Positions 10,583-43,875 of a stretch of DNA of 64,000 bases are shown here, piece after piece. The translations under genes were made by a program, and so were the position numbers. The notes beneath the pieces were generated by a model that was not told the DNA's origin, made no database searches, and was given only the letters and a program-made list of their open reading frames with translations. Source of the stretch: Bradyrhizobium sp. CCBAU 53340 (GTDB lineage Bacteria; Pseudomonadota; Alphaproteobacteria; Rhizobiales; Xanthobacteraceae); NCBI RefSeq assembly GCF_015291645.1, contig NZ_CP030055.1:6696001-6760000 (forward strand). The letters are read 5' to 3'. How positions within the stretch are numbered: the stretch's first letter is position 1; every line of letters starts with the position of its first letter.

Positions 10583-10600
10583 ATGGCGCTCCCTAGGGGA
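10583..10600. repeat. attL: 18-bp copy of the tRNA-Glu 3' end
   Basis: ATGGCGCTCCCTAGGGGA matches 43800-43817 exactly. That is the CCA, discriminator, acceptor 3' strand and part of the T arm of tRNA-Glu. Identity stops on both sides (C versus A on each), as expected for an integration core. Confidence 0.85.
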
Positions 10601-10735
10601 CTTTAGGCTCCTAGCGAGATCAAAGACTTAGAGGACGGTGGGACAGAAAACGGTTCTAGGGAATCGTTATCGTTTCTAGCGCGACTGTCTCACCAGCGGC
10701 ACCCCAAAAGGCGCCGCAAAGGGGTGGAATTCGAC

Positions 10736-12322
10736 ATGACTGAGACTGCAAACGGAGGCCTCCCCGAGGCCGCCGCAAAACCCGTTTCCGCTGCCGTGAG
10801 CGGCAAGGGGCAAGACTTCAACGACATGCTGGCGAGCGCCGAGCCGGGTCGGATCGCCGACCTGGTCGATTACGGCGATAACCTCGGCGACGCCGACGAC
10901 CTGGGCGGCTTTGTAGATGGCGCCAGGGAGGTCCAAGACGCGCAATCCGCGTCTCCCCGTTCCTGGGGCTTCGATGTCGCGGAAATCAACCGTAGCTATG
11001 CCCTGGCGATCTGGGGCGGCAAGGCGGTGGTGGTGAACGAACAGCCGTCCGGCCCGGTCAATGACCGGGTGCGGGTGATGATGTTCGAGTCGATGAATTC
11101 TTGGTTCGGAAACCGATTCACGGAAACGGTCGGCTCGGACGGCAAGATTCGGGCTGCGACCTGGGCAAAGGCCTGGCATTCGCATCCGGATCGGCGGTCA
11201 TACGACGGAGTCGAGTTTTGGCCGAACCCGGACGGAGCCAAAGGCACACCAGGCTATCTGAATTTCTGGCGCGGTTTCGACGTGGCGCCTTCGCCGACGG
11301 GATCGTACAAGACCTTTCGCGACCATCTGCTCACGAACGTCTGCGACGGCAACGTCGAGCTATTCAACTACGTCTTTGGCTGGATGGCGCATATCGTGCA
11401 GAAGCCGCGCGAGCGGCTTGGCACCGCGATCGTGCTGCGCGGCCGGCGGGGAACCGGCAAGAGTAAGGTTGGCGAGGTGCTAGGGTCACTGTTTTCGTCG
11501 CACTATTTCCAGGTGGATGACGCCCGATACATCACGGGCCAATTCAATGCGCACATGGCGAGTTGCTTGCTGCTGCAGGCCGATGAAGCGGTGTGGGCTG
11601 GCGACAAGGCGGCTGAGGGACGGCTCAAGGGATTGATCACGAGCGAAATGCAGATGATCGAATCCAAGGGCGTCGATCCGATCCGCTTGCGCAATTTCGT
11701 TCGCGTGATCATGTCGTCGAACGAGGGTTGGGTTGTGCCTGCTGGAATGGATGAGCGCCGGTTCGTCGTTCTCGACGTTAACCCGCGGTGCGCCCAAGAT
11801 CGCGCATACTTCGCTGAAATGGATGAGGAGTTGAAGAACGGCGGGCGCGAGCGGCTGCTTCACGACCTCCTGACATTCGACTTGACTCAGGTCGACTTGT
11901 GGCACCTCCCGCAAACTCAAGCCTTGCTGGATCAAAAGGTTCGATCGCTCGATACGATCGATGACTTTTGGTTCAATCGTCTAGACGACGGCAGCGACTG
12001 GCCCAAGCAGATCACCTGCGCTGATCTTTACGGGGAATATCTCAAGGCAGCGTCACAGATTGGCGTCGGTCGGAAGCGCGGCCAGGCTGAGTTTGGTAAG
12101 CGCCTCGCCAAGCTAGTGCCGGGGCTCCGCAGATACCGGCCTGCAATCGAGGTTGCACCCGGCGTGACAAAGCAGGTCTGGTGCTACGAGATTCCGCCAC
12201 TAAGTGAATGCCGCGCGGCATTTGACGAATTGCTCGGCCAACCCGTCGATTGGCCGGCGCTTCCCCCGGGAGAGGGCGAGCGAGCGCAGCATGTGCCGGA
12301 TGACGACGATATTCCCGTCTAG
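10736..12322 (+). CDS. Phage/plasmid primase-helicase (DUF5906, P4-alpha-like)
   Basis: Predicted 528-residue protein. The central ATPase core has a Walker A (Gly-Arg-Arg-Gly-Thr-Gly-Lys-Ser, about residues 240-247), a Walker B-like Leu-Leu-Gln-Ala-Asp-Glu about 50 residues on, and a sensor segment (Val-Ile-Met-Ser-Ser-Asn-Glu). These are typical of superfamily 3 helicases of satellite and plasmid replicons. Low-complexity Asp/Gly-rich residues occupy the N terminus; no Toprim or AEP primase signature is evident, so it may be helicase only. ATG 10736 follows GGGGTGG. The large inverted repeat immediately downstream is a plausible origin for it. Confidence 0.85.
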   Translation: MTETANGGLPEAAAKPVSAAVSGKGQDFNDMLASAEPGRIADLVDYGDNLGDADDLGGFVDGAREVQDAQSASPRSWGFDVAEINRSYALAIWGGKAVVVNEQPSGPVNDRVRVMMFESMNSWFGNRFTETVGSDGKIRAATWAKAWHSHPDRRSYDGVEFWPNPDGAKGTPGYLNFWRGFDVAPSPTGSYKTFRDHLLTNVCDGNVELFNYVFGWMAHIVQKPRERLGTAIVLRGRRGTGKSKVGEVLGSLFSSHYFQVDDARYITGQFNAHMASCLLLQADEAVWAGDKAAEGRLKGLITSEMQMIESKGVDPIRLRNFVRVIMSSNEGWVVPAGMDERRFVVLDVNPRCAQDRAYFAEMDEELKNGGRERLLHDLLTFDLTQVDLWHLPQTQALLDQKVRSLDTIDDFWFNRLDDGSDWPKQITCADLYGEYLKAASQIGVGRKRGQAEFGKRLAKLVPGLRRYRPAIEVAPGVTKQVWCYEIPPLSECRAAFDELLGQPVDWPALPPGEGERAQHVPDDDDIPV

Positions 12323-12360
12323 GGGATATCCTAGGCCATCCTAGCGCATCCGGGCATGCG

Positions 12361-12579
12361 GAATTCAAGAAATCACTGCAGCACAGGCACAAATCCTAGG
12401 TATCCTAGGAATCCTAGTCGCGCGCGCGTAGGCAAACCAAGCCGGTCTCAGGTCGTCCTGCTCGGCTAGTTTTTTCCTGACTTCCAATAATTCATGGATT
12501 CCTAGGATACCTAGGATTTGTGCCTGTGCCGCAAGGGTTTCTTGAAATCCTAGCGCCGCCCGATGCCTGGATATCCAGG
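12361..12579. repeat. Large CCTAGG-rich inverted repeat, origin candidate
   Basis: Arms at 12361-12414 and 12496-12549 are inverted copies. Their inner 34 bases (12381-12414 and 12496-12529) match perfectly and the rest have about five mismatches; the loop is 81 bases. Each arm carries two CCTAGG palindromes, and CTAG occurs ten times between 12318 and 12555. A perfect palindrome CCTGGATATCCAGG follows at 12566-12579. Placement beside the primase-helicase suggests a replication origin; a transcription attenuator is the alternative. Confidence 0.65.
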
Positions 12580-12676
12580 ATATCAAACATCAAACTCGGA
12601 TCAACCTATCGGTTCTGCCGTCAACGTCGCTTTAGGCGACCTTGGCGGCGGAGCCTTTCTTTTTGAGGAACTACCA

Positions 12677-12943
12677 GTGAGCAAACTAACCGCCGAACAA
12701 ATCGCCTTCGCGAAAACTATGTCGATCAAACAGCGCTCTGTTCTCAGAACGTTGGATAACTTCCCGTTCTATTTGAGCGCGAGCGAGCGGGCCGACCGCG
12801 AAATTGACGACCTGTTCCGAAACAAGCTTGTGCAGTGCTGCCACTATGACAGCCCGGCGGGGAGCCCTCGTGCCCTTCCAGCCTGGGGGGTGACGCAGGC
12901 CGGCAAGGCCGTTGTTGCCAGGCTGGAAAAGGGACAGCTCTAA
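12677..12943 (+). CDS. Small winged-helix-like protein, unknown function
   Basis: Predicted 88-residue protein. The GTG start at 12677 follows GAGGA; the frame is open from 12563, but the earlier part overlaps the repeat region. The pattern of helices (Ser-Ile-Lys-Gln-Arg-Ser-Val-Leu-Arg ... Asp-Leu-Phe-Arg-Asn-Lys) followed by a Trp-Gly-Val-Thr-Gln-Ala-Gly-Lys strand resembles small phage winged-helix proteins. I do not recognise a family. It lies between the origin-like repeat and the tape-measure-like gene. Confidence 0.5.
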   Translation: MSKLTAEQIAFAKTMSIKQRSVLRTLDNFPFYLSASERADREIDDLFRNKLVQCCHYDSPAGSPRALPAWGVTQAGKAVVARLEKGQL

Positions 12944-13085
12944 GCGGCGGGTCCTTCCCAGGCCGGCACCCGCCTACGGCACAAGGGCGCCCCGAAAACG
13001 CTCTAGCTGCAAATTTTTGAAATTGGGTTGACGCGGTTGCATTGACGCGACCGGGGGTTGACCACGCGAACGAAAGGAACACTCG

Positions 13086-15095
13086 ATGTCTACCATCCTT
13101 GAAGCCTTGGCCGTCATTAAAGCCAAAGACCAGACCGGCAACGCGCTCGAGTCCGTGACGCAAAAGGTCAACCGCATGTCGCGCGCCTGGTCGGCGCTAT
13201 CCCGCGACATCGAAAAGCACGTCGCGCTCGGCCAGAAGGCGGAGGTGCAGGCCTCGCGCCTGGCGCGCGCCGGCCAGGCGATCAGCACTGGCGCCAAGAT
13301 GGCGAGCGCGGTCGCCGGCGCCTATGCTGGCTCAAGCGCGGCGCGCCTGGTCGCAACGCACCTGGCAAAATCCGGCGCTGATCGCGGTCATGAGGAGGTG
13401 CGCATGCGCGCCGCCGGCATGACCGACCAAGAGGTCAAAGAAGCCGAGGAGTTGGCGCGCGCGACCAGCGCGAAATACAAGTCGATTTCGACAACTGAGA
13501 TCATGCACTCGGCGCGCAACATTCGATCGGTCGTCGGCACTTTTGAGGAGGCGACCAAGATCATTGACCCGCTGATGAAGTTGCGAGTCGTCGCGCAAGG
13601 TGCTCACCCGGAAAAGGCCGAGGAGCTAGGCGAGGATTTCGACAAGCTGATCAAAGGTATGGAAATCAAGGGCGTGACGCAGGATCACGCCAAGTTCGAG
13701 CACTATATCGACAACATGGCGAAAGCCGTGAACGTGTTCGGCGATACACTGCGGCCGACCGACTTTTACGAAATGTTCAAGTATGGGCGCGCAGCAACGA
13801 ATGCGCTCGGCGATGAGTTCATGCTCAAGACGGCGCCGACGCTGGCGCAGGAGTTGGGCGGATCGTCGGCAGGTAAAGCGCTGTCGAGCTTCCACACTCA
13901 ATTCGTCGGCGGCAAGATGTCGAATAAGGCCGTCGACATGCTCAACAAATACGGCCTGGTTGACCAGTCGAAGGTGATCCGCACCACCACGGGCGCCGTT
14001 AAGGGCGTGCTGCCTGGCGGCATCATCGGCGGCGAATATCTGAAGCCTGGGCAAGAGGACCCTTACGCCTGGACTAACAAGGTGCTGTTGCCGCACCTGG
14101 CGCAAAAGGGCGTCACCGATCCGGCGGAAATCCAGGAGGCAATTAGCGCGATGGCGTCGCAGCAGACGACCGCGCAAATGATGAGCATTTTCGCCACACA
14201 GCAAAAGCGCATTGAGAAGGATTGGGACCTGATCCAGAAGGCGCACGGCATCAGTGCGGCCGACGAATATCTCAAGAGCGATCCGAAGGTCGCGCAAGAG
14301 GCGGTCAAAAAGCAATTCGACAACTACATGGGCGAGACGGCCAAGCCTTTCGTCGGCCCCGCAACGACCAGCATGAATTGGCTGGCGTCGGGCCTCAACT
14401 ACATGTCGGACTACGCCAGGCAGAATCCAGGGCATCATGCCGCGGCCACTGCCTGGGGTACAGCGATGGGCGGCGCGCTTAGCGCTGATACCGCGCAATC
14501 GATGTTCGGGAAGATCTTCGGCAAGGGCGGAGGCAGCTTCCTGTTGAGCAAGGTCGTGGCCACGATGGCGCCGATGCTCGCGATCGCTCAACTCGGCAGC
14601 GATGTCGTCACCGACGACGATATCGCGCGCTTGAAGCGATATGAGGCCGGCCCGCGCTCACGGTTCGACGCCTTGAAAGCAATCGACGACTCGGAAAGGG
14701 CGGCCGACATCTACGGCCACGATGATCCGGTATACGACGCGCAACTCAGGGCGATGAATGCGGCCAAACGCGCCAAGATCGAAAGCGAGTTGACCGATCT
14801 CGGCTTCGCGCCGGCCGGCACGCCTGGGCGCGGCATGATGGCAGGAAGCTATACCATCGACGATTTGCAGCGAGCGCTCGGTATTGGCGGCGACAGGGAG
14901 CCCGCGAAGGCTGAAATTGTCGGGAACGCTACGCTCGAAACGACCGTGAGAGTTGAGCCGTCGCCGGATTTCCTCGCCAAGGTCGATCAGCGCGTCGACA
15001 ACAAGATCAACGCCTTCCGCAGTTCTGGCGCCGGCGCGTCAGGCTCAACCGGCTCGACCGGCCGGAGCATGCCGGAAGCGACGGCCCCGATGTGA
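13086..15095 (+). CDS. Tape-measure-like phage protein
   Basis: Predicted 669-residue, helix-rich protein. The N terminus (Ile-Lys-Ala-Lys-Asp-Gln-Thr-Gly-Asn-Ala-Leu) has the pattern seen at the start of many tail tape-measure proteins. It is followed by Ala/Gly-rich helical stretches, a hydrophobic segment near residues 465-485 (Phe-Leu-Leu-Ser-Lys-Val-Val-Ala-Thr-Met-Ala-Pro), and a C-terminal Thr-Thr-Val-Arg-Val-Glu-Pro-Ser-Pro-Asp segment common in that family. ATG 13086 follows AAAGGAA. It is odd because no other tail gene is present; it may steer a helper phage tail or act as an internal capsid or ejection protein. Confidence 0.6.
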   Translation: MSTILEALAVIKAKDQTGNALESVTQKVNRMSRAWSALSRDIEKHVALGQKAEVQASRLARAGQAISTGAKMASAVAGAYAGSSAARLVATHLAKSGADRGHEEVRMRAAGMTDQEVKEAEELARATSAKYKSISTTEIMHSARNIRSVVGTFEEATKIIDPLMKLRVVAQGAHPEKAEELGEDFDKLIKGMEIKGVTQDHAKFEHYIDNMAKAVNVFGDTLRPTDFYEMFKYGRAATNALGDEFMLKTAPTLAQELGGSSAGKALSSFHTQFVGGKMSNKAVDMLNKYGLVDQSKVIRTTTGAVKGVLPGGIIGGEYLKPGQEDPYAWTNKVLLPHLAQKGVTDPAEIQEAISAMASQQTTAQMMSIFATQQKRIEKDWDLIQKAHGISAADEYLKSDPKVAQEAVKKQFDNYMGETAKPFVGPATTSMNWLASGLNYMSDYARQNPGHHAAATAWGTAMGGALSADTAQSMFGKIFGKGGGSFLLSKVVATMAPMLAIAQLGSDVVTDDDIARLKRYEAGPRSRFDALKAIDDSERAADIYGHDDPVYDAQLRAMNAAKRAKIESELTDLGFAPAGTPGRGMMAGSYTIDDLQRALGIGGDREPAKAEIVGNATLETTVRVEPSPDFLAKVDQRVDNKINAFRSSGAGASGSTGSTGRSMPEATAPM

Positions 15096-15131
15096 TACAA
15101 TCAATTTGGATTCGGAATTGAGGTGATGCTT

Positions 15132-15629
15132 ATGGCTTTGGCGCCAGAGGATATGCGGTTCGCTTTGGATGACGCGCGCCGCCGGCATACGGCGGTCGTT
15201 GACCAGATAGCTGCGAACGATCGCCAAGCGCTTGGTTTCCTCCAATTGTACGTGGCGCTGGCTGGAGGCTCCCTTTCAGGCGGTGCGGCGATCGCGCTTT
15301 CGGGCGCCAACACTTTCCCGAAGGCTCTCGGCTATGGACTTTTTGGCTTTGCCGTCCCGTTGATTCTCGGCGCGATGTTTTGCATGGCCTCCATCTGGCC
15401 CAGCAACATCAGCCTACCTGGACGCAAGCCTGACTTTTGGATATGGGCAAACGAGGTTACGGCGGAGAAGGCATATCTGGCCTATCTCGAAAATCTCGCC
15501 ATCAAGGAAGCGCAGAACACACGCCTCAATATCAAACTCTCGCGGTTGATGCTTATCGCAAAGGCCCTGGGCGTCGCCGCGCCTGTGGTTGCAATCATCG
15601 CAGGCGCGGCTTCCTTTTGGTTTCGTTAA
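15132..15629 (+). CDS. Small three-span membrane protein
   Basis: Predicted 165-residue protein with hydrophobic segments near residues 37-57 and 65-95 (two poorly separated spans) and at the C terminus (Ala-Leu-Gly-Val-Ala-Ala-Pro-Val-Val-Ala-Ile-Ile-Ala-Gly). The N-terminal 35 residues are charged and helical. In-frame starts at 15123 (GTG), 15126 and 15132 are all possible; the last has the best spacing from GAGG. It starts 36 bases after the tape-measure-like gene and is probably co-transcribed. A holin or membrane-anchored regulator is possible; no family was recognised. Confidence 0.6.
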   Translation: MALAPEDMRFALDDARRRHTAVVDQIAANDRQALGFLQLYVALAGGSLSGGAAIALSGANTFPKALGYGLFGFAVPLILGAMFCMASIWPSNISLPGRKPDFWIWANEVTAEKAYLAYLENLAIKEAQNTRLNIKLSRLMLIAKALGVAAPVVAIIAGAASFWFR

Positions 15630-15639
15630 AGAGCGCCGT

Positions 15640-15744
15640 TCACTTAATTCTAAACGGCGGCGTCTGAGTTCTTCTATTGTCCGTGTCCGGCGGTGGCTCT
15701 CTGGGCGGTGGTGGCGGCGGCGGGGGCTTCTTGTCATCAGACAT
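15640..15744 (-). CDS. Proline-rich 34-residue peptide
   Basis: ATG 15744 follows AAGGGA with acceptable spacing. The product begins Met-Ser-Asp-Asp-Lys-Lys and then has a run of eight prolines and further Pro pairs. It is the only minus-strand gene inside the satellite body. Low complexity makes it uncertain whether it is expressed. Confidence 0.35.
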   Translation of the reverse strand: MSDDKKPPPPPPPPREPPPDTDNRRTQTPPFRIK

Positions 15745-15850
15745 CAAACATTCCCTTGTCTCTCTGGCGGCTCCTACGAATCGGGAGGCGGCAACAATTA
15801 TAGACCTGTTTCGCCTGTGATTTCTTGGCTCCTCGAATCTTCCAGCCGGC

Positions 15851-15902
15851 AACTAGCCGATCCCGCTAGTTTATCAAAAGCCCAAACTAGCCGATCCCGC
15901 TA
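15851..15902. promoter_or_regulatory. Repeated operator-like site
   Basis: AACTAGCCGATCCCGCTA occurs twice, at 15851-15868 and 15885-15902, 34 bases apart. The first copy extends to a perfect inverted repeat AACTAGC-N7-GCTAGTT. Spacing near three helical turns suits cooperative binding by a repressor. It lies in the 550-base gap before the next plus-strand gene and may be the control site for the middle operon. Confidence 0.5.
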
Positions 15903-16179
15903 TTGCGCGACCACAGTGAACCTGGAAATTGCTTCCTGGGTGTAGTAGCCCGCGGAATCAGAGAAAGGCGCGCCGATCGGCGCGGCGGTTTGCTCTACGC
16001 AACCGATCGAAAACCGACACAAAGCCGGCCACCGCCGCTTATGTCGGGAGGCGAACGCTATAAAACACCTTCGGGGAAAGCGTTCGAACCTGTCCTCTCT
16101 GACCAGGCTACTACCCTCCCGGCGCCAGGCCGGCACCCTGGCGATGGCTGTCGTAGGCCAAAAGACAGAGAGACTCGCT

Positions 16180-16452
16180 ATGAAGAACCCAACCGCGCCC
16201 GGCGTGCATTATGCCACGTTCATCAATGAGGATACGGGCGAGGTGATCCCGCTCTATCTTCGTTCCCGCGAAGAGATCGACCTGGAAATCGATCATCGGA
16301 TATGCCGCGATCGAGTGATCGGCCTCGATAGCACCGAGCACGAAGTGACTCGCGCCAAGTTTCATGAGGCCTTAAAGGCCCTGGCGCGGTCGCTCGCGCG
16401 CGCCGCCGCAATCGAGGATTATCGGTGCCAGAACTCGACCGTTGCGACATAG
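16180..16452 (+). CDS. Hypothetical 90-residue protein
   Basis: ATG 16180 sits behind a GAGAG box. The product has a Phe-Ile-Asn-Glu-Asp-Thr-Gly-Glu-Val-Ile-Pro-Leu-Tyr strand pair, then a charged helical half rich in Ala and Arg. No recognised domain. It is followed at once by the tandem RNA-like units, so it may share their transcript. Confidence 0.5.
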   Translation: MKNPTAPGVHYATFINEDTGEVIPLYLRSREEIDLEIDHRICRDRVIGLDSTEHEVTRAKFHEALKALARSLARAAAIEDYRCQNSTVAT

Positions 16453-16459
16453 GGCGAAC

Positions 16460-16565
16460 TCGACAATCTTGTCGGGGGACTATGGACGATGACGGGTTGC
16501 TTTACATACACCCGACCATGCGAAAGACCCGCAACGACAAACCCGCCCCTCGCCGGCGGGTTTTT
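16460..16565 (+). ncRNA. Tandem small-RNA candidate, unit 1
   Basis: First of two related units of about 106 bases. It contains a local stem (GGGT with ACCC around TTGCTTTACATAC) and ends with a strong intrinsic terminator: ACCCGCC, a seven-base loop, GGCGGGT, then a T-run (16541-16565). No open frame is shared by the two units. Confidence 0.5.
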
Positions 16566-16583
16566 GTTTTCGTGCGCTCCGGT

Positions 16584-16690
16584 TCGACATTTTTGTCAGG
16601 GGGTCATAGACCGGAACGGGGTGCTTGACATACACCTGATCCTGCAAAGAACCCGCAGCAGCTACACCCGCCCTCGCCGGCGGGTTTTTT
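16584..16690 (+). ncRNA. Tandem small-RNA candidate, unit 2
   Basis: Second unit, aligned along its whole length with 16460-16565: TCGACA at the start, ACATACACC in the middle, and the ACCCGCC/GGCGGGT terminator with a six-T run at the end. The internal stem is changed on both sides (GGTG with CACC instead of GGGT with ACCC), which suggests the structure is kept. Confidence 0.5.
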
Positions 16691-16794
16691 GCTGGCAGCA
16701 TTCACCAGGACTCCGCGCGGCATCCCCGCGCCGGGTCCTTTTTTTTGGCCGTGGCAACGGTCCTACCGCACATGTGCAGATGGAGAAAGAAACG

Positions 16795-17265
16795 ATGATC
16801 AGAGAATTCTCACCGCAAGCGACCGCCTACGCGGTCCGTTGCAAACCCGACGCCATTCGCGACTGGCGCCGCCTGGGCCTCCTCAACGGCCTCAGTGAAC
16901 GCAAGGGGAAAGGGCACCTTTTCACTGTGTCCGACGTTGCGCGAATTGCTGTCGCAGCTTTCATTGCTCGCAACGGCGCGACCCTCCGCCAGGCGTTCGA
17001 AATCGTCGATCGGCGCGGGGCCATCATCGACACCGTCGCCGCGACCGAGCGCAATGCGCCAGGCGCCGGCCAGGATTATGTGCTTACGTTCGTCGTTGAT
17101 CCGGACGTTAGTTTTCCCGCGAGCATCACCAATGCTCCGATCTCGAACATCGAATTCGACGCGGAGCCGATCGGCGCCCTGCAAATCAACGTCTCACGCC
17201 TGGTTCGATCCGCACTGGAACGTCTCGTGACCTATGACAAGTGGGACGCGGGCGCCGCCGCCTAA
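16795..17265 (+). CDS. MerR-like helix-turn-helix regulator
   Basis: Predicted 156-residue protein. ATG 16795 follows GGAGAAAG; the longer open frame from 16489 runs through the RNA-like units and is not used. Residues 1-50 look like a MerR-type winged helix (Ala-Ile-Arg-Asp-Trp-Arg-Arg-Leu-Gly-Leu-Leu ... Phe-Thr-Val-Ser-Asp-Val-Ala-Arg-Ile). The rest is a beta-rich domain of unknown kind. It stands first in the operon with the capsid gene and may control it. Confidence 0.6.
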   Translation: MIREFSPQATAYAVRCKPDAIRDWRRLGLLNGLSERKGKGHLFTVSDVARIAVAAFIARNGATLRQAFEIVDRRGAIIDTVAATERNAPGAGQDYVLTFVVDPDVSFPASITNAPISNIEFDAEPIGALQINVSRLVRSALERLVTYDKWDAGAAA

Positions 17266-17282
17266 CGAGAGCCCAAGCCACT

Positions 17283-17507
17283 ATGTCAACAAAGGAACCT
17301 GGCTTACCTGAACCGCCGGCCGACTTCGAACAGCGCTGCTCCGAGACATACAAGCGGCTCCAAGCCGGCGAGCCAATGACCATCCAGGACATCGCCGATC
17401 AACTCGGCTTGCCCTTTGAATTCCTGGGGGCGTGCCTGGCCGTCTATTCGGCAGCCGTCTACGGCGTTCCTGTCGTGATCGACTCGAGCCGACCAACCAC
17501 CCACTAA
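17283..17507 (+). CDS. Small helix-turn-helix-like protein
   Basis: Predicted 74-residue protein starting 17 bases after the regulator stop. The central part (Thr-Ile-Gln-Asp-Ile-Ala-Asp-Gln-Leu-Gly-Leu-Pro) reads like a helix-turn-helix, followed by a hydrophobic Tyr-Ser-Ala-Ala-Val-Tyr-Gly stretch. It ends 14 bases before the protease-capsid gene. Unrecognised; a small DNA-binding or capsid-assembly accessory protein is possible. Confidence 0.5.
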   Translation: MSTKEPGLPEPPADFEQRCSETYKRLQAGEPMTIQDIADQLGLPFEFLGACLAVYSAAVYGVPVVIDSSRPTTH

Positions 17508-17521
17508 AAGGAAAAATTCCT

Positions 17522-19432
17522 ATGACGAAATCTAGGGCTCGCCGGCCTCAGCCGGCGGCAACGGATTTGCACGTCCGCCGCGCGCCGGTTCGGGCGACCA
17601 CGTTCGACTCCGCGACAGGCGCTTTCTCTGCCGTGATCGCGACCGACACGCCGGTCGCGCGCCGCGATGGCGAATACGGCGATTATTTCGAAGTGTTGTC
17701 GCTCGCGCCGGCTTCCGTCCGGCTCGACCGATTGAAATCTGGTGCATCGCCGATTCTCGACTCGCATCGGTCGGGATCGGCCCGCGATCAGATCGGCGTT
17801 GTTACCGACGCCAGGATCGAGGCCGGTCAACTGGTCGCCGACGCACGTCTATCGCCTCGCGACGACGTAAAGGGCATCGCGACCGACCTCGCGGCGGGCA
17901 CACCGCCGAACGTCAGCGTTGGCTATCGCGTGTACGCCAGCGTCGAGAGCCGAGACCGCGAAGGCCGGCTGATTATCACGCGCACCGATTGGGAACCGTT
18001 CGAGGTCAGCCTCGTGGCCATTCCGGCCGATCCCAAAACTCACGTCCGAAATCAGAAAGGAATCTCTATGCCTAAGAAGCACACCATTCGTCCCACCGAT
18101 TCTCACGAGGGCGATCACGACGCCGACACCGTCGTCGCGCAGCGCGGCGAAACCGGCCAGGACAATCTCTTGTCTCGCGACGCAATCGCTATCCTCGACC
18201 ACGCGGCGGCCCGCGGCATGTCGGTTGAATTTGCTCGGCAGCACATTGCCGAGGGCTCGACCATTCATGAATTTCGGCTTGCGGTGCTCGATGAAATGGC
18301 CGAACGCGCATCCCGCCTTCACATCAATAGCCGCACTGACAGCAGCGCGACGTTCGATAATCCGGACTTCACAGCTCGCATGGTTGGCGATGTGCTGTAT
18401 GCCCGCATGACCGGCACGCGACCCGAGGGCGCAGCAGCGGAATTGGCCGGCAAGTCGCTGCTCGATCTCGGCGCGATGATGTTGGAGCAGCGCGGAGAGC
18501 GCCCGAATTGGCGCAACCGGGATCAATTGGCGAATCAGATTCTGACGCGCGCCGGCGATATGACCACGTCGGACTTCCCGAACCTCCTGACCGCGAGCGG
18601 CCACAGGGTTCTCAACCAGTCTTATCAGGTGGCGCAGACTCCGCTGCTCCAGCTTTGCAAGCGGCGCGATGCCGTCGACTTCCGCGCTTTGACTCAGGTC
18701 AAGCTGAGCGAGGCTCCCCGCCTGCTTGAAGTCAAGGAAAGCGGCGAGGTGAAGCATGGTGCGCGTTCGGAATCGGCCGAGTCGTTCAAGCTCAAGACTT
18801 ATGCGCGCATCTTTTCAATCTCGCGCCAGGCGATCGTGAATGACGATCTTGGCGCCTTCGCGGACAGCGCTAGCGCGTTCGGCCGCGCCGCTGCTCAAAC
18901 CGAGTCCGACTTGCTGGTGAGCCTGCTCACGGCCAACAGCGGGAACGGCGCCAATCTTGCTGACAACGTCGCGCTGTATGATGCGGCGCACGGCAACAAA
19001 GCCGCCGCCGCCGGCGGAATCGGCATTTCGACGTTGTCTGATGGCCGCCAGGCAATGCGAAGCCAAAAGGACATCGACGGCAAGACGTTGATTTCCGTGA
19101 GCCCGAAATACCTGGTTGTCGGCAGCCAGATCGAAACCATTGCCGAGCAGTTCTTGCATACGATCTCCGCTGTCGACTCAACCAAGGTGAACCCCTTCGG
19201 CGGAAAGCTGACGTTGCTGGTCGAGCCGCGTCTTTCCGGGCTGGCTTGGCGCCTGTTCTGCGATCCGGCGGAAGTGGCGTGCCTGATGGTGGCGTATCTC
19301 AACGGTGCCGACGGCCCGATGGTCGAGCAGCGCCTCGGATGGGACGTGCTCGGTTTGGAAATTCGCGCCGTGCTCGACGTGGGCTTCGGCCTGAATGACT
19401 TCCGGGGCACCTACCTGAACCCTGGCGCCTAA
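17522..19432 (+). CDS. Prohead protease fused to major capsid protein
   Basis: Predicted 636-residue protein; ATG 17522 follows AAAGGAAAAA. Residues about 20-180 match HK97-type prohead (S78) proteases: an Asp-Ser-His-Arg-Ser-Gly segment with the likely His and a Trp-Glu-Pro-Phe-Glu-Val-Ser-Leu-Val-Ala-Ile-Pro-Ala-Asp-Pro end. A linker and Ala-rich helices (scaffold/delta-like) follow, then from about residue 330 a capsid domain of HK97 or Mu gpT type (Val-Lys-Glu-Ser-Gly-Glu-Val-Lys-His-Gly; Arg-Gly-Thr-Tyr-Leu-Asn-Pro at the end). Protease-capsid fusions are known in tailed phages. It is intact, so a virion shell can probably be made, but no portal or terminase is nearby. Confidence 0.85.
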   Translation: MTKSRARRPQPAATDLHVRRAPVRATTFDSATGAFSAVIATDTPVARRDGEYGDYFEVLSLAPASVRLDRLKSGASPILDSHRSGSARDQIGVVTDARIEAGQLVADARLSPRDDVKGIATDLAAGTPPNVSVGYRVYASVESRDREGRLIITRTDWEPFEVSLVAIPADPKTHVRNQKGISMPKKHTIRPTDSHEGDHDADTVVAQRGETGQDNLLSRDAIAILDHAAARGMSVEFARQHIAEGSTIHEFRLAVLDEMAERASRLHINSRTDSSATFDNPDFTARMVGDVLYARMTGTRPEGAAAELAGKSLLDLGAMMLEQRGERPNWRNRDQLANQILTRAGDMTTSDFPNLLTASGHRVLNQSYQVAQTPLLQLCKRRDAVDFRALTQVKLSEAPRLLEVKESGEVKHGARSESAESFKLKTYARIFSISRQAIVNDDLGAFADSASAFGRAAAQTESDLLVSLLTANSGNGANLADNVALYDAAHGNKAAAAGGIGISTLSDGRQAMRSQKDIDGKTLISVSPKYLVVGSQIETIAEQFLHTISAVDSTKVNPFGGKLTLLVEPRLSGLAWRLFCDPAEVACLMVAYLNGADGPMVEQRLGWDVLGLEIRAVLDVGFGLNDFRGTYLNPGA

Positions 19433-19438
19433 CAAATA

Positions 19439-19541
19439 CTGCGAGCAAGCAAACCCAAGAGGGTGTCGCGGCCTTCATCCGGTAGCAGAAAGCTATCCTC
19501 CCCGGCTTGCTCGCAGAGTCATGAGCGGGGCCAAGGATAGC
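19439..19541 (+). ncRNA. Pseudoknot candidate after the capsid gene
   Basis: Stem 1 pairs CTGCGAGCAAGC (19439-19450) with GCTTGCTCGCAG (19505-19516), 12 perfect pairs. Stem 2 pairs GCTATCCT-CCCC (19492-19503) with GGGG (19527-19530) plus AGGATAGC (19534-19541). The left arm of stem 2 is inside stem 1 and its right arm is outside, so the two either compete or form a pseudoknot. It begins six bases after the capsid stop. It could be a 3'-end element, an attenuator or a packaging signal. Confidence 0.55.
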
Positions 19542-19576
19542 ACCAAGGCCGCATTTTCCTTTCCAGGCTAGATCAC

Positions 19577-19822
19577 ATGCTCGACGAAAAACCGTCTGCG
19601 CGCCGCAGCAGCACGTTGCCGCTGTCGTTGCCGCCGCGAGGCTTATCGCGTGTTCAAGCCGCTGAGTACATCGGGGTCAGCCCCTCGACGTTTGACAAAA
19701 TGGTCGCCGAGGGCGACATGCCCGCGCCCAAGAAGATCAGGGGGCGGGTGATTTGGGATCGCAAACAGCTTGACTGCGCCTTTGACGCATTCGACGATGG
19801 CGGCGAAAATCCATGGGATTGA
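19577..19822 (+). CDS. AlpA-type excisionase/regulator
   Basis: Predicted 81-residue protein with a MerR/AlpA-like DNA-binding helix pair: Leu-Ser-Arg-Val-Gln-Ala-Ala-Glu-Tyr-Ile-Gly-Val-Ser-Pro-Ser-Thr-Phe-Asp-Lys-Met, then Pro-Ala-Pro-Lys-Lys-Ile-Arg-Gly-Arg-Val-Ile-Trp-Asp. Such proteins in P4-like elements act as excision factors and integrase regulators. Its last codons overlap the annotated start of the integrase gene by ten bases, indicating coupling. Confidence 0.8.
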   Translation: MLDEKPSARRSSTLPLSLPPRGLSRVQAAEYIGVSPSTFDKMVAEGDMPAPKKIRGRVIWDRKQLDCAFDAFDDGGENPWD

Positions 19823-20871
19823 ATTCGGTTTCCAGCATGCGCGTGCCGCTTAAGTACATTTGCGAGGATGTCGATCGGCACGGCAACGTGCGCTGCTACG
19901 TCCGCGCACCAGGGAAACGAAAGGTGCGCATTCGCGCGCTGCCTGGCACGCCCGAATTTATGGACGAATATCAAGCGGCGATCGCAACAGCCGCCGAGGC
20001 ACCTTTGCGCCAGGCCGACGCCGCAAAGAAAGGATCGTTCCGCTATCTCTGCATTCGCTACTACGGGAGTTCGGCCTACAAGGCTTTGGACATCAGCACG
20101 CGCAATTGGCAGCGTCGAGCCCTCGACGAGATCGCCGGCGAGCATGGAGCGAAGCCGATTGCGATGATGCAGCCTCGGCACGTGCGGCGGATGCGCGACG
20201 CAAAGGCTACAACGCCGGCCGCCGCTAATCAGCTCGTGAAGGCATTGCGGGCCTTATTCTCCTGGGCAAACGAGGCGGAGGAAACGACCGTGAATCCGAC
20301 GGTCGGAGTGAAAAAGCTGAAATATCGGTCGGAGGGCCATCACACTTGGACCGATGAAGAGATTCAACAGTATTACGTGCGGCACCCGCTCGGCACGAAA
20401 GCGCGGCTTGCGCTCGATTTGCTGCGCTATACGACGGGGCGGCGCGAGGATGCGCCGCGCCTCGGCCGACAACATACGCGCGACGGCCGAGTCCGCTTCC
20501 GCCAGGCAAAGAATGAGCATCGCAACCCGATCGACATCGATATGCCGCTGCACCCGGCGTTGGCCGAAAGCATCGCGGCGGCCAAGGTTGGCACCAATAT
20601 GACGTTTCTACTCACCGAGTTCGGCAAGCCATTCACGGCGAATGGATTCGGGAACAAGTTCAAGGATTGGTGCCGGCAAGCCGATCTGCCACACTGCTCG
20701 GCGCACGGCATTCGCAAAGCCACTTCGACGGCACTCGCAGAAGCCGGCGCAACGCCACACGAGATCATGGCGATTACCGGCCATCAGACCTTGGAGGAGG
20801 TAGAGCGCTACACGAGGGCGGCGAGCCGAAAGAAGACGGCCGACAAAGCCATGGCGAAACTTGCAGGGTGA
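19813..20871 (+). CDS. int: Tyrosine integrase
   Basis: Predicted 352-residue phage-type integrase. The N-terminal arm-binding part is followed by a SAM-like core-binding domain (about residues 75-160). The catalytic domain has Arg in Thr-Thr-Gly-Arg-Arg-Glu-Asp, the box II motif His-Gly-Ile-Arg, the later His in Thr-Gly-His-Gln-Thr and the nucleophile Tyr in Glu-Arg-Tyr-Thr-Arg-Ala. Start codons at 19813 and 19837 are both possible. Phage integrases of this kind favour tRNA 3' ends with cores of 15-30 bp, which fits the 18-bp tRNA-Glu repeat. It is unusual that the gene is 23 kb from the tRNA. Confidence 0.88.
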   Translation: MGLNSVSSMRVPLKYICEDVDRHGNVRCYVRAPGKRKVRIRALPGTPEFMDEYQAAIATAAEAPLRQADAAKKGSFRYLCIRYYGSSAYKALDISTRNWQRRALDEIAGEHGAKPIAMMQPRHVRRMRDAKATTPAAANQLVKALRALFSWANEAEETTVNPTVGVKKLKYRSEGHHTWTDEEIQQYYVRHPLGTKARLALDLLRYTTGRREDAPRLGRQHTRDGRVRFRQAKNEHRNPIDIDMPLHPALAESIAAAKVGTNMTFLLTEFGKPFTANGFGNKFKDWCRQADLPHCSAHGIRKATSTALAEAGATPHEIMAITGHQTLEEVERYTRAASRKKTADKAMAKLAG

Positions 20872-33989: not shown

Positions 33990-34286
33990 CAGCCCAAACC
34001 TGCGCAATTAGGGGTATTGAACCTTGAACTGAAGCCCTTCCGAGCACATGCGTACTATGCGGCTCGACGCGAGACACGTCTGGACGACACGGCGTTCGGC
34101 CCCTACAGGCCCCCGAACGCTAACAGCATAACGAGTCAGCTCTGGGTCATTTTCGACGCATTTGGCAGGGATTGAGGACTGGTTGATGTCCGCTCCTGTC
34201 CGTAAGCGCCGTACCAAGAGCGGGCCAGGAGAGTTGCGTTTGGCCGGACCGCCGTGATTCAAGGTCCCGAACTGGGGACTCGAATC

Positions 34287-35049
34287 ATGCGCTACGAACT
34301 CGCCGACCATGAATGGACCGCCATCAAGCCGATGCTGCCGAACAAGCCGCGTGGCGTTCCTCGGGTGAACGACAGTCGGGTCCTGAATGGCATTTTCTGG
34401 GTCCTCCGATCAGGAGCACCCTGGCGTGATCTGCCGACGGCGTTTGGCCCATACACCACTTGCTACAACCGTTTCGTTAGGTGGCGGCGGGCCAATGTTT
34501 GGGGCCGCATCATAGAAGCGCTTGCCACTGCCCATGATGCCGCTGTCCAAATGATCGACACCTCCATTGTCCGCGTGCATCAGCATGGAGCCTGCATCAC
34601 AAGGAACCAGCGCCAATCGATGGGAAGGTCCCGCGGCGGCTTGACGAGCAAAATCCATGCGGTGGTCGATGGCAATGGTCTGCCGGTACGGCTGGCGCTG
34701 AGCCCGGGTGAGGCCCATGACGTTCGACTCGCCGGAAAACTGCTGTCTCGTCTGAAATCCGGGTCGATGCTGCTTGCTGACCGTGGGTATGATGCGGACT
34801 GGGATCAGGGAGCTTGCCATGAAGAAGGGCGCGTGGGCCAACATCCCGCCGAAAAGCAATCGCAGCGATCCGATTTGCTTCAGCCCTTATCTCTATCGTG
34901 CTCGCAACCAGGTCGAGCGGTTCTTCAACAGGATCAAACAATGTCGTCGGGTGGCGACGCGCTACGATAGGCTCGCCGCCAACTACCTCGCATTCATTCA
35001 ACTCGCGTCAATCCGGCTATGGCTGCGCCTTAATGAGTCCGCGTCCTAA
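34287..35049 (+). pseudogene. IS5-family transposase, frameshifted
   Basis: The N-terminal half (Tyr-Glu-Leu-Ala-Asp-His-Glu-Trp ... Trp-Arg-Asp-Leu-Pro) and a DDE region (Met-Ile-Asp-Thr-Ser; Leu-Ala-Asp-Arg-Gly-Tyr-Asp-Ala-Asp) run in one frame to about 34800. The last part (Arg-Asn-Gln-Val-Glu-Arg-Phe-Phe-Asn-Arg-Ile-Lys, with the catalytic Glu) is in another frame. One extra G in GGG at 34801-34803 accounts for it. Some IS5 subgroups use programmed frameshifting, so damage is likely but not certain. Terminal repeats were not identified. The stop overlaps the end of the convergent kinase gene. Confidence 0.75.
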
Positions 35050-38832: not shown

Positions 38833-40884
38833 CTAAATTCCGAGCCCGCGTTTTCGGCCAAATTGCCAGGAAATGTCATCGCCACGCATGATGCCGACGA
38901 CCTCTCGGCCGATTTCCTTCTCAATAGCCGGGCGCCACGGTACGAGGCTGAAGCCGAGTCCGCCATCGATCATGGCGAAGCGGCCGCTGGCGAGTTGGGT
39001 GGATCCGATCAACTTGCCGCGAATGGTTTGACCATCTTCGATCGCTTGGAAAGCAAGGCCTCGTTCAGCGGCGAGCTTCCGTCCAACTCGCTCGACCTCT
39101 CGACGTTCGAGCGTGGGCAGAAGGTCGGCTCTCGCACGGACGCCACCATCGGGCATGCGCCGGGCGTGGCCCCGCCGGATCAATTCGTCCTTCCGCCGTT
39201 CCAAGGCGTCCCGCACCTCAGCGCCGAAGCCTCCCTCGGCCAGCATACCGCGGTTGGGATTGACTAATTGCCGGTCGAGCCAAGTAGCGCCGTCGCTGGT
39301 CACCTGGCGATCAAGATCGAAGGCCGAGTGGACCCGCAGACTCGTCCGCCGGCCAACGCCGGCCTCATAGGCCTGTGCGCGGGCTTCGAGATCGTCCGGT
39401 ATAATCCAACGGTCGGGACCTGCCCGCTCGACGATGCCGGCCCGGCGCAACGCCTCCAGGCGGCGGATGTGGCTTTCGACATAGGCCTGATAGTCGCCGC
39501 CGGGAACACGCACGTGACCTGCCTCGGCAAGCGCCCGATGCTCGTTCGGGTGGTACTCGCCGGTGCCTCTCGCAAGCTCAGCGATATTGCGGTCGGCGGG
39601 ACGTGGGCCGGCCGGCGCGCGCCCAATCTCGACGATCGCGCCGATCCTCGCCTCGTCGGCAATCGCAGCGTCCCTCAAGGCCACGTGGTGGACGCGTCCG
39701 TCGATGCCATCGACGATGATTCCGACCCTATCGGCGAGCTCATCAGCCAGCTCCTTGCCGATGACCCTGCCGATCACCGGGGCCGATGTCGTATCGCCGT
39801 GGAGGAGGATGTTCTCTGCGCCTCGTGCTTGCCCCTGCGCGGCGAGGGAACGGTTGATGGACTTGATGATATCGCCGCGTTCGCCAAGCTCTCTCAATGC
39901 CGGCTCGAGCCGATCGGACAGGTGCCAGACGCCGGGTTCAATCTCCCTTGCCAATCCGAAGCGCCCCAGCACCTGCAATCGTCCGATCCGGAGCGTCCGA
40001 TCGAAGTCGGCGTGGCGCTGACCGGCGTCCGGCCGCAGGTCGAGGAAGCCATTATCGGCCGCCCCCACCATCGCGCGATCAATGCGGGTGAAGCGCTCGG
40101 CGGCGATCTCCGCCTGAAGCTTCGTCCGCACCTCAATATCCGTCTCAGGTCCTAGCTCTAGGGTCGCCCGGTCCTGGGCGCGGAGCCGCAACCCATCCGT
40201 GATGTAGTCCTGGGCGATAATGAGATCCTTACCGAGATCGTCCTTGCCCCGGATCACGATATGGCTGTGAGGATGGCCGGTGTTGAAGTGGTCGACCGCG
40301 ACCCAATCGAGGCTCGTGCCGAGATCCTCTTCCATTTGCCGCATCACGTCCCTCGTGAAGCCATGGAGATCGGACAGACGATCGCCGTCCTCGGGAACCA
40401 CGATGAAGCGGAATTGGTGGCGGTCCTCGCGCCCCTGCTCGACGAAGGCCCGGCCATCCACCCGTTCGTCATCCGGTCCATAGAGCTGACCTCGCCCGCC
40501 GTCGCGGGTCGTCCCATCGCGCTGGAGGTAGTTGAGATGCGCATGGGCAGCTCTGCTGCCGATCTTCAACCGGACGATCCGTGCCTTGACCACGACACGG
40601 CGCATACGCTGGCTCGCGTCCCGCTGCCCCGCCGCCAACTTCAATCGATCGGCCGCGGCTTGGCCCCGACCGATCCGCGAGCAACGACCTTTTTTGGGAC
40701 GCGTCGACCGCGAAGGACCTCTGTTCTTGCCGCGCGACCGTCCCGGCGTCAGGGGGCCTCCATTGGCCTTCACGGCAGCCTTCATGACCTGCGCGAAGAA
40801 CGACTTCGGCCGCCGCGCGCTGCCTCCTCTGTCACGGATGCGGCCGGGGCGGGGGCGGAAATCTGATTTGTCGTCGCGGCTCAT
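38833..40884 (-). CDS. VirD2-like relaxase (DUF3363)
   Basis: Predicted 683-residue relaxase. A basic N terminus is followed by the three-His motif (Val-Asp-His-Phe-Asn-Thr-Gly-His-Pro-His-Ser-His) typical of MOBP/VirD2 nickases; the likely catalytic Tyr is in the early Leu-Asn-Tyr-Leu-Gln-Arg-Asp-Gly segment. A long C-terminal DUF3363 part follows. ATG 40884 (Met-Ser-Arg-Asp-Asp-Lys) was chosen over 40929 by family. Such relaxases belong to rhizobial integrative conjugative elements with trb/tra genes, none of which are seen here, so it is orphaned or mobilised in trans. Confidence 0.85.
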   Translation of the reverse strand: MSRDDKSDFRPRPGRIRDRGGSARRPKSFFAQVMKAAVKANGGPLTPGRSRGKNRGPSRSTRPKKGRCSRIGRGQAAADRLKLAAGQRDASQRMRRVVVKARIVRLKIGSRAAHAHLNYLQRDGTTRDGGRGQLYGPDDERVDGRAFVEQGREDRHQFRFIVVPEDGDRLSDLHGFTRDVMRQMEEDLGTSLDWVAVDHFNTGHPHSHIVIRGKDDLGKDLIIAQDYITDGLRLRAQDRATLELGPETDIEVRTKLQAEIAAERFTRIDRAMVGAADNGFLDLRPDAGQRHADFDRTLRIGRLQVLGRFGLAREIEPGVWHLSDRLEPALRELGERGDIIKSINRSLAAQGQARGAENILLHGDTTSAPVIGRVIGKELADELADRVGIIVDGIDGRVHHVALRDAAIADEARIGAIVEIGRAPAGPRPADRNIAELARGTGEYHPNEHRALAEAGHVRVPGGDYQAYVESHIRRLEALRRAGIVERAGPDRWIIPDDLEARAQAYEAGVGRRTSLRVHSAFDLDRQVTSDGATWLDRQLVNPNRGMLAEGGFGAEVRDALERRKDELIRRGHARRMPDGGVRARADLLPTLERREVERVGRKLAAERGLAFQAIEDGQTIRGKLIGSTQLASGRFAMIDGGLGFSLVPWRPAIEKEIGREVVGIMRGDDISWQFGRKRGLGI

Positions 40885-41946
40885 GCAAGCGATGTCGCAG
40901 CCTGCGTCCTCGAACGCAATCATCGGCATGCCGCCATCGCATCAACGGCAGCAAAAACAAGGAATTGGCGGATTCAGCGCCCCCGCTCTGGCGACATCGG
41001 CTCTAAAACCAGTGTGCAGACAAGGGCTTCGAGCAAACGCTAGTTTGCTTTAATCTTGCCCTCCACCGTAGCTTCGCCGATCATGCGCCAATCCACGCTA
41101 GATCACGACTGCCATTCGAAAGAAAGTCTCAGCATCTGTGAGATTGATCGCGCAATGCCAAGCAATATCTCGACGTTGAGAGTACGTCTTCGCCAATACG
41201 AGTACATTCCTAGTGATCCGCAACGATCGAGTAATCAACGTAGGTCTCGCGATCTCCAACTGCACACATCCGGTTTTCCTTTCGCAAATTCGTAGCGCCA
41301 ATCCGCGTCTCCGAGCTGCGAGGCAAATGCTCTAGCGGAAGCCAACGTCTGTCAACAAACAGTGTTGCGCCGGCAACATTCTGGCATCAACGACGCAGCG
41401 CAAAAGTCGGCGCGGAGCGTATACGGTTGTTGTCGGATGTCGTATAGCGATTGTTCGCACGGCCTAGACCCTGCCCAGGCCATGCCGCCGCCTCGGATGT
41501 TCACGAATGCTTCGATCGCCGGTAGGAGCACGCATGTGGTCATCGTGGTGGCGGCAAGATCTCCCCGTTGATCGCTTGGCCGCGCGATTTCCGGGCAGCG
41601 GGCGCGGTCAATGACGCGCTCACTTGGGAGCGCGCCGCGAAGCGGTCGAAGATCATTGACCGCGACCGTTGCCCGGAACACGATGGCTCGCTTGCGGTCA
41701 GCAAGTGGTGGTGAACCACTTGCAGCGCTGCGAGCCGGGCAGGCGAAAACCACCCGCTTCGCCGAGCGGACGCCCACCCAAAGTAGCTCAGTCCTACATG
41801 ACAGACGCAAGTGAGACTGTATCCCAGGATCGTCCTGGCGGTGGGACAAACGGAAGCCACTCCGCCGTTCGCTTGTCATCGTGCGCTATGCTGCGAAGGC
41901 CGCCACCATCGATTGCGCCGGCGCTCCCATTGCATTCCCTAGCGGG
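40885..41946. other. Long gap upstream of the relaxase
   Basis: Roughly 1 kb without a convincing gene. As the region in front of a relaxase gene it would be the expected place for an origin of transfer, but I could not define a nick site. Confidence 0.35.
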
Positions 41947-43857: not shown

Positions 43858-43875
43858 CCGCTAGACGAAGGGAGC
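43801..43875 (-). tRNA. tRNA-Glu (anticodon CTC)
   Basis: Minus strand: acceptor GCTCCCT pairs with AGGGAGC, D arm with AGCGGTTA loop, anticodon loop CTCTCAA (anticodon CTC, reading GAG), T loop TTCGATT, discriminator G, and an encoded CCA at 43803-43801. The gene is intact and is the integration target of the island. Confidence 0.95.

Follow-up and report, generated by a model that had tools for sequence, protein, structure and literature searches.

A family of candidate phage satellites in Bradyrhizobium with a putative one-gene shell and no recognised portal or large terminase

Phage satellites differ in which parts of a virion they encode themselves. According to the available text of PMC10690885, capsid-forming phage-inducible chromosomal islands (cf-PICIs) encode both terminase subunits along with coat, protease, portal and head-tail connector proteins, the cohesive-end (cos) site of satellite P4 is recognised by the helper terminase, and the Streptomyces phage satellites MulchRoom and MiniFlayer have terminase, portal and scaffold genes and no replication genes. 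Here, we describe an element at 10.6–20.9 kb of a 64,000-nucleotide stretch of Bradyrhizobium sp. CCBAU 53340 (contig NZ_CP030055.1, positions 6,696,001 to 6,760,000; the whole stretch is called the window) that encodes a protease–coat fusion and in which no portal or terminase was recognised. We consider it likely that this element is an integrated phage satellite whose one-gene shell is filled by the terminase of a helper phage at a shared site, with the portal and tail also provided by the helper.

Like cf-PICIs, the window element would be an integrated satellite that itself encodes a coat and a maturation protease and depends on a helper for its tail, but its head module consists of the protease–coat fusion only, and no portal or small or large terminase subunit (TerS, TerL) of its own was found. 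The initial annotation, made from the sequence of the window, had stated that known capsid-forming satellites have larger head modules. With P4 the element has in common an alpha-type primase/helicase, recognised by its helicase part, an AlpA-like gene and, at the level of sequence only, a cos site shared with phage. P4, however, re-sizes the helper coat via Sid, whereas the window element brings its own coat gene; no Sid-like match was obtained among its ten proteins in profile searches, which small divergent proteins can escape. MulchRoom and MiniFlayer also encode encapsidation genes, but the window element is their reverse, having replication genes and lacking portal and terminase. Among the literature matches listed, which comprised titles and abstract openings and covered few subscription papers, no description of a shell-only satellite was found, nor one of an own shell gene combined with a loading machine borrowed through a shared packaging signal.

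All frames of the element are open and lie on the forward strand. They include a P4-alpha-type primase/helicase (10724–12322; DUF5906, E 1e-22; PHROG DNA primase, E 5e-39), a tape-measure protein in a variable cargo slot (13086–15095), the protease–coat fusion (17522–19432), an AlpA-like excisionase or regulator matched by Pfam and PHROG profiles (19577–19822) and a tyrosine integrase (19813–20871) that is 83–93% identical in genomes G066, G173 and G320. As is general for satellites, the element is thus integrated, has its own integrase and replication genes and holds an incomplete set of virion genes. The tape-measure gene had no Pfam or PHROG match up to E 1; its product is 75% identical over the full length to a protein in the tail operon of contig L116, located behind a PHROG tail-tube gene, and 55% identical to the PHROG tape-measure protein of L117. 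These profiles, identities and open frames confirm the gene list of the initial annotation, namely an intact helicase, protease–capsid fusion, tape-measure-like gene, AlpA and integrase. The annotation had also seen no portal or terminase, and Pfam and PHROG profile searches of the element's proteins likewise returned no portal, TerS or TerL. A portal hidden among the unassigned reading frames, which had been named as a refuting case, was rejected, as these frames are too short (168 aa or less, apart from a frame of 258 aa that contains the MerR-like orf7) and gave no profile match. In the host genome there was no match to portal family phrog_21 or TerL family phrog_15, which occur in related phages and were the only portal and terminase families searched genome-wide, and the queries used revealed no second coat and no second tape measure.

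The fusion is likely the whole shell from one gene, as suggested by its match to phrog_4523, "major head and protease protein" (E 3e-163), and by its predicted fold. In an AlphaFold model (mean pLDDT 76.5, pTM 0.50), a helical linker connects an N-terminal domain rich in beta strands with a coat of the HK97 type; the best matches of the model in the PDB are phage coats of the HK97 fold, and encapsulins appear further down the list. In the protease part His82 is invariant and Ser132 nearly invariant among 19 aligned sequences, and we take these two to be the catalytic residues; the coat fusion of G111 appears to carry a different protease type. A single chain of protease, linker and coat would suffice for a shell apart from the portal. 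Where measurable, the coat gene is under purifying selection, with a nonsynonymous-to-synonymous rate ratio (omega) of 0.18 for G150/G320 (synonymous divergence, dS, 0.25) and 0.22 for G025/L002 (dS 0.71); the other 19 pairs gave omega values of 0.18 to 0.41, unreliable at a dS above 1.2.

Is the window element a single oddity? Coat searches covered 149 relatives and then 265 genomes of the genus and scored only the best few candidates per genome (up to 4); they found matches in at least 16 and at least 25 genomes, respectively, the own genome counted. Seven loci have primase, orf2 and coat in identical order (G000, G025, G066, G150, G173, G320 and the viral contig L002), and the same gene order, which the initial annotation had proposed to look for, thus recurs in genomes of the genus and in one viral contig. 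The AlpA-like gene is present in six of the seven, being missing from G150, and a tyrosine integrase in five; the recombinase of G150 is of the serine type, and the L002 contig breaks off within AlpA. The cargo consists of a tape measure in the window, G320 and L002, type IIG restriction enzymes in G066, G150 and G173, and a sulfatase in G025; G320 also carries a tail-fibre-like gene. A further locus, G071, has its pieces on three contigs and a coat match with internal stops, and looks decayed or split. A tree built from 23 coats places those of the seven shell-only elements in one group (support 81/81, and 100/99 together with G111), while several long branches leave the deeper placements unsure. 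The window element is a member of a conserved family and not a lone decayed prophage. As a side observation, sulfatase cargo occurs in satellite-like elements of two hosts, L118 (G025) and L082 (Chelatococcus).

No portal or large terminase was found in the rest of the family either. Thirty-nine reference proteins gave no portal or TerL match at E ≤ 1e-5 in the seven shell-only elements, L002 being a viral contig cut at both ends, and PHROG profiles run over six whole genomes placed no portal or TerL inside any shell-only element. In those six genomes portals were found only at G173:C126 and G320:C92 and TerL only at G173:C126 and, in fragmentary form, in G025 at a distance of 2.6 Mb from the satellite; all of these lie outside the satellites. 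As a control, 31 loci outside the family that carry this type of coat (30 from a set of 80 viral loci and 1 from a set of 13, some of them near-duplicates) were read with the same references, which detected a portal in 30 and TerL in 22; in the one locus without a portal match, L003, the contig begins 1.3 kb from the coat. Among the seven shell-only elements TerS was matched in L002 alone.

How could such elements be packaged? Comparison with candidate helpers revealed a cos-like packaging site, which the initial annotation had not foreseen; in phage L200 (G164) it showed as a 22-mer that lies upstream of the TerS gene. In the window it spans 12949–13052 on the forward strand, with the core TACGGCACAAGGGCGCCCC at 12975–12993, a GGGTCC box upstream and repeats downstream; the conserved block reads GGGTCCYTCC, about ten bases, TACGGCMCAAGSGCGCCCC and then spaced repeats. 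All seven shell-only elements have the core with at most 3 mismatches, each time just downstream of orf2 (12563–12943, forward strand, in the window; present in all seven), and in L002 it directly precedes the element's own TerS. The core was found neither in 2.02 Mb of other fetched loci, a count that omits nine loci (six overlapping the tested elements, and L116, L160 and L181), nor in 1.18 Mb of shuffled sequence. Across the genus its pattern occurs in 16 of 265 genomes, one copy each, and the reversed control in 0: the 16 are the six shell-only genomes, G071, the phage of G164, G182 (at a contig edge), the primase–TerS elements of G011 and G303, of which the former has a tape measure and the latter a fragment of one, and five loci without an assigned type (G013, G076, G239, G249 and G259). 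Of 11 matches on viral contigs, 8 (6 distinct sequences) immediately precede a small-terminase gene; the other three, inside one coding gene, look like chance. Ten portal- or terminase-bearing satellite loci had no match to the motif at ≤4 mismatches, and when deposited phages were searched by blastn with the region around the L200 site, all matches were short and weak, with E values of at least 0.3. Sequence comparison thus gives good support to a packaging site shared between satellites and related tailed phages, and this site is the one feature that speaks for a possible mobilisation of the element in particles of a helper. Loci L235–L239 have a cos-like site, and the reference proteins recognised no structural genes there; L236 has AlpA and integrase matches 4 kb off. 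These loci are perhaps capsid-less satellites of the same helpers.

The repeats behind the core fall into classes, assigned by eye. Class I (TTGACA type) is found in phages L200, L207, L208, L210, L211, L216 and L217 and, partly degenerate, in the satellites of the window (TTGAC), G320, G150, G173 and G071; class II (CCGAACA) comprises phage L214 together with the satellites of G066 and L002, and class III (CCTGACAA) phage L215 together with the elements of G011 and G303; the repeats of G025 look mixed. Among 12 TerS proteins compared, 9 of them distinct, the DNA-binding helix-turn-helix (HTH) segment mostly tracks the repeat class. Between L002 and L240 (G303), of different class, identity is 93% outside the HTH and 47% within, and between phages L210 and L214, also of different class, 80% and 57%, whereas L002 and L214, of the same class, are 59% identical outside and 72% within; L240 and L215, again of one class, are 82% identical in both parts. 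Such domain swaps are expected if the repeats are TerS binding sites.

The best-characterised helper candidate, the contractile-tailed phage L200 of G164, has the cos-like site, a TerS family (with L002) and a tape-measure family in common with the satellites, its own tape measure being 53% identical to that of the window. It differs from them in possessing complete head, packaging and tail genes, including a tail sheath (E 5e-142), TerL (E 9e-200) and TerS.

The left attachment site of the window element (attL, 10583–10600, forward strand) has an 18-bp core whose partner at 43800–43817 on the same strand, with 17 of its 18 bases within the 3' end of tRNA-Glu(CTC) (43801–43875), is the outer core at the edge of a composite island; apart from attL, the whole genome has the core of this repeat only in that partner (43802–43817), and it also bounds the relatives in G066 and G173. 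The pair is 33 kb apart, and because the satellite lies inside this 33-kb composite island its right edge is unmarked; it would be near 22.2 kb if the element is sized like its relatives. Four of the six genomic elements have paired repeats, with spacings of 11,690, 11,533, 11,825 and 11,527 bp; the tRNA genes concerned are tRNA-Phe, tRNA-Glu(CTC) (twice) and tRNA-Glu(TTC). The distance, measurable in 4 of the seven elements only (no paired repeats were found in G150), stays at 11,527–11,825 bp although the cargo differs. P4 is of a size resembling the approximately 11.6 kb of these satellites, and seven portal- or terminase-bearing satellites measure 11.8–12.8 kb.

Within the genus the shell-only elements stand beside loci with larger gene sets. 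In seven of them (G017, G018, G161, G163, G260, G274 and G288) a coat is accompanied by a portal, and no TerL was detected in the vicinity; two others, G047 and G217, carry both terminase subunits as well as portal and coat and come close to the gene set of cf-PICIs. The coat-plus-portal satellites (L126, L127, L192, L193, L194, L196 and L197) are an intermediate kind. The viral contig L155/L204 shares the primase (62%), AlpA (78%) and integrase (91%) with the window and carries a small terminase, portal, tape measure and tail gene; reference proteins detected no coat or large terminase in it. It is a step toward a grading of the backbone into full prophages. The second refuting case of the initial annotation, full-phage relatives of the same element, was not encountered: the six close relatives are shell-only, with L155/L204 as a qualification. 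The central claim, a shell-only satellite needing the portal, terminase and tail of a helper, has survived both tests and is supported. Two further contigs look phage-like by eye and share little of the backbone: L156 (64 kb) has a primase relative (56%), and L205 (51 kb) an integrase (64%) and AlpA (54%), with no other backbone genes in either.

In the sequence of events that we favour, infection by a helper phage would lead the satellite to excise and replicate. The product of the fusion gene would assemble a small shell, one vertex of which would be taken by the helper portal; the helper terminase would cut satellite DNA at the shared site and load one unit of about 11.6 kb, and the helper tail would then be added to the filled shell. 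The satellite tape measure of the window and two relatives, in one of them together with a tail-fibre-like protein, could enter the helper tail. The use and the size of the own shell are inferred here. A more far-reaching version, which we regard as an even call, is a lineage of chimeric particles with a one-gene satellite shell, helper portal and terminase recruited through a shared cos site whose repeats follow the TerS type of the helper, and a helper tail that may contain the satellite tape measure or fibre; this lineage would form one step of a graded series within the genus (coat; coat and portal; coat, portal and terminase), the size of which the shell keeps at 11.5–12.8 kb.

Several observations weigh against the proposed satellite–helper partnership. 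The coat part of the window fusion is only 33% identical to the coat of phage L200, whose N-terminus is presumably another, ClpP-like protease, and the fit of the satellite coat to a helper portal is for these reasons unproven. No helper is resident: the host genome lacks a match to the TerL and portal families searched, so that any helper would have to be an incoming phage. Phages L124 and L129 of the wider group, terminase regions included, are without the site at ≤4 mismatches, as are the tail contig L116, L117 and L199, and the TerS of L148 (G011) breaks the class pattern, its HTH being 50–52% identical to class III versus 53–56% to class I. The window site itself has 2 mismatches and partly degenerate repeats, and a left-flank search in 41 genomes gave no empty site and no adjacent tRNA was identified. 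With these repeats, the 2-mismatch site and a right attachment site separated by another island, the window copy may be less mobile than its relatives.

Could the coat serve another end than an own shell? Known satellites act on helper capsid assembly, as the available texts of PMC10690885 and PMC10945586 describe, and a single conserved structural gene would suit a coat that joins or poisons the procapsids of the helper and thereby makes them smaller or blocks them. However, protease, linker and coat are all kept, with His82 invariant and Ser132 nearly so, which is more than a poison needs, and the coat is just 33% identical to that of L200; we therefore think capsid interference unlikely. 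Less probable still, and in our estimate very unlikely, is that the elements are decayed prophages that have lost portal, terminase and tail and in which the coat gene survives by chance. Coat, tape measure and cos are phage-derived, G071 looks decayed or split, and many "incomplete" prophages are reported in the available text of a Hyphomicrobiales survey (PMC11080155). Yet one reduced gene set is found at different tRNA genes with paired attachment repeats and near-constant length, and purifying selection, swapped cargo and similar origins speak against chance survival; broken genes, irregular ends and an unconserved reduced set were not found, the unmarked end being the window's own right one. 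That the shell is kept as an encapsulin-like host compartment and not for DNA is hardly credible: encapsulins do occur among the HK97-fold matches, but the mobile setting, the cos-like site, the fused protease and the co-occurring integrase and replication genes all point elsewhere.

If a helper terminase indeed fills the satellite shell, shell building and DNA loading are divided between two genomes, which raises the question whether a coat is functional in combination with a portal and motor of foreign origin. The classes of cos repeats and matching TerS segments may be a readable code that predicts helper–satellite pairs, and the regular size and the series from coat to portal to terminase open the origin of capsid-forming satellites to comparative tests. 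In the available text of PMC11080155, "incomplete" prophages of non-animal-associated Hyphomicrobiales are enriched in integrase, tail, transposase and protease and depleted in terminase and head genes, a pattern that would fit misread satellites; if the host belongs to that order, as the initial annotation implied, some of these "incomplete prophages" may be intact satellites.

The remaining features of the window element are smaller. A likely replication origin at 12360–12550, with no strand assigned, consists of short repeats in two facing blocks that flank a stem-loop (55-nt arms, 91% complementary); the layout is alike in six elements compared by eye, and the repeat sequences differ between them. 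Downstream of the tape-measure gene, on the forward strand, follow a 168-aa protein with hydrophobic stretches (15123–15629; phrog_25606, function not annotated) and orf6 (16144–16452; 102 aa, Pfam and PHROG matches below cut-off only). Two direct 106-nt copies, 75% identical, occupy 16460–16689, just upstream of orf7 (16780–17265, forward strand), a MerR-like regulator with a weak MerR match that lies upstream of the coat gene. It is present in three of the seven elements (window, G025 and G066, the latter two copies being 64–67% identical to the window's), and a different protein occupies its position in the remaining four. The small protein orf8 (17241–17507, forward strand) has weak HTH matches and is 55% identical in L002. 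A second palindrome, TTTTGTATCGTACGAAACA, is absent from the window and found in L189, L118, L002, L148 (2 mismatches) and phage L200, adjoining the tape-measure gene or in the cargo region; it is possibly a common operator. Finally, the 23 kb between integrase and tRNA (20900–43800) form a second mobile region with a histidine kinase, a tentatively labelled insertion sequence (IS)-like gene (34254–34970), a DUF3363 relaxase (38833–40929) and a serine recombinase (42196–43857) whose frame ends inside the tRNA-Glu gene.

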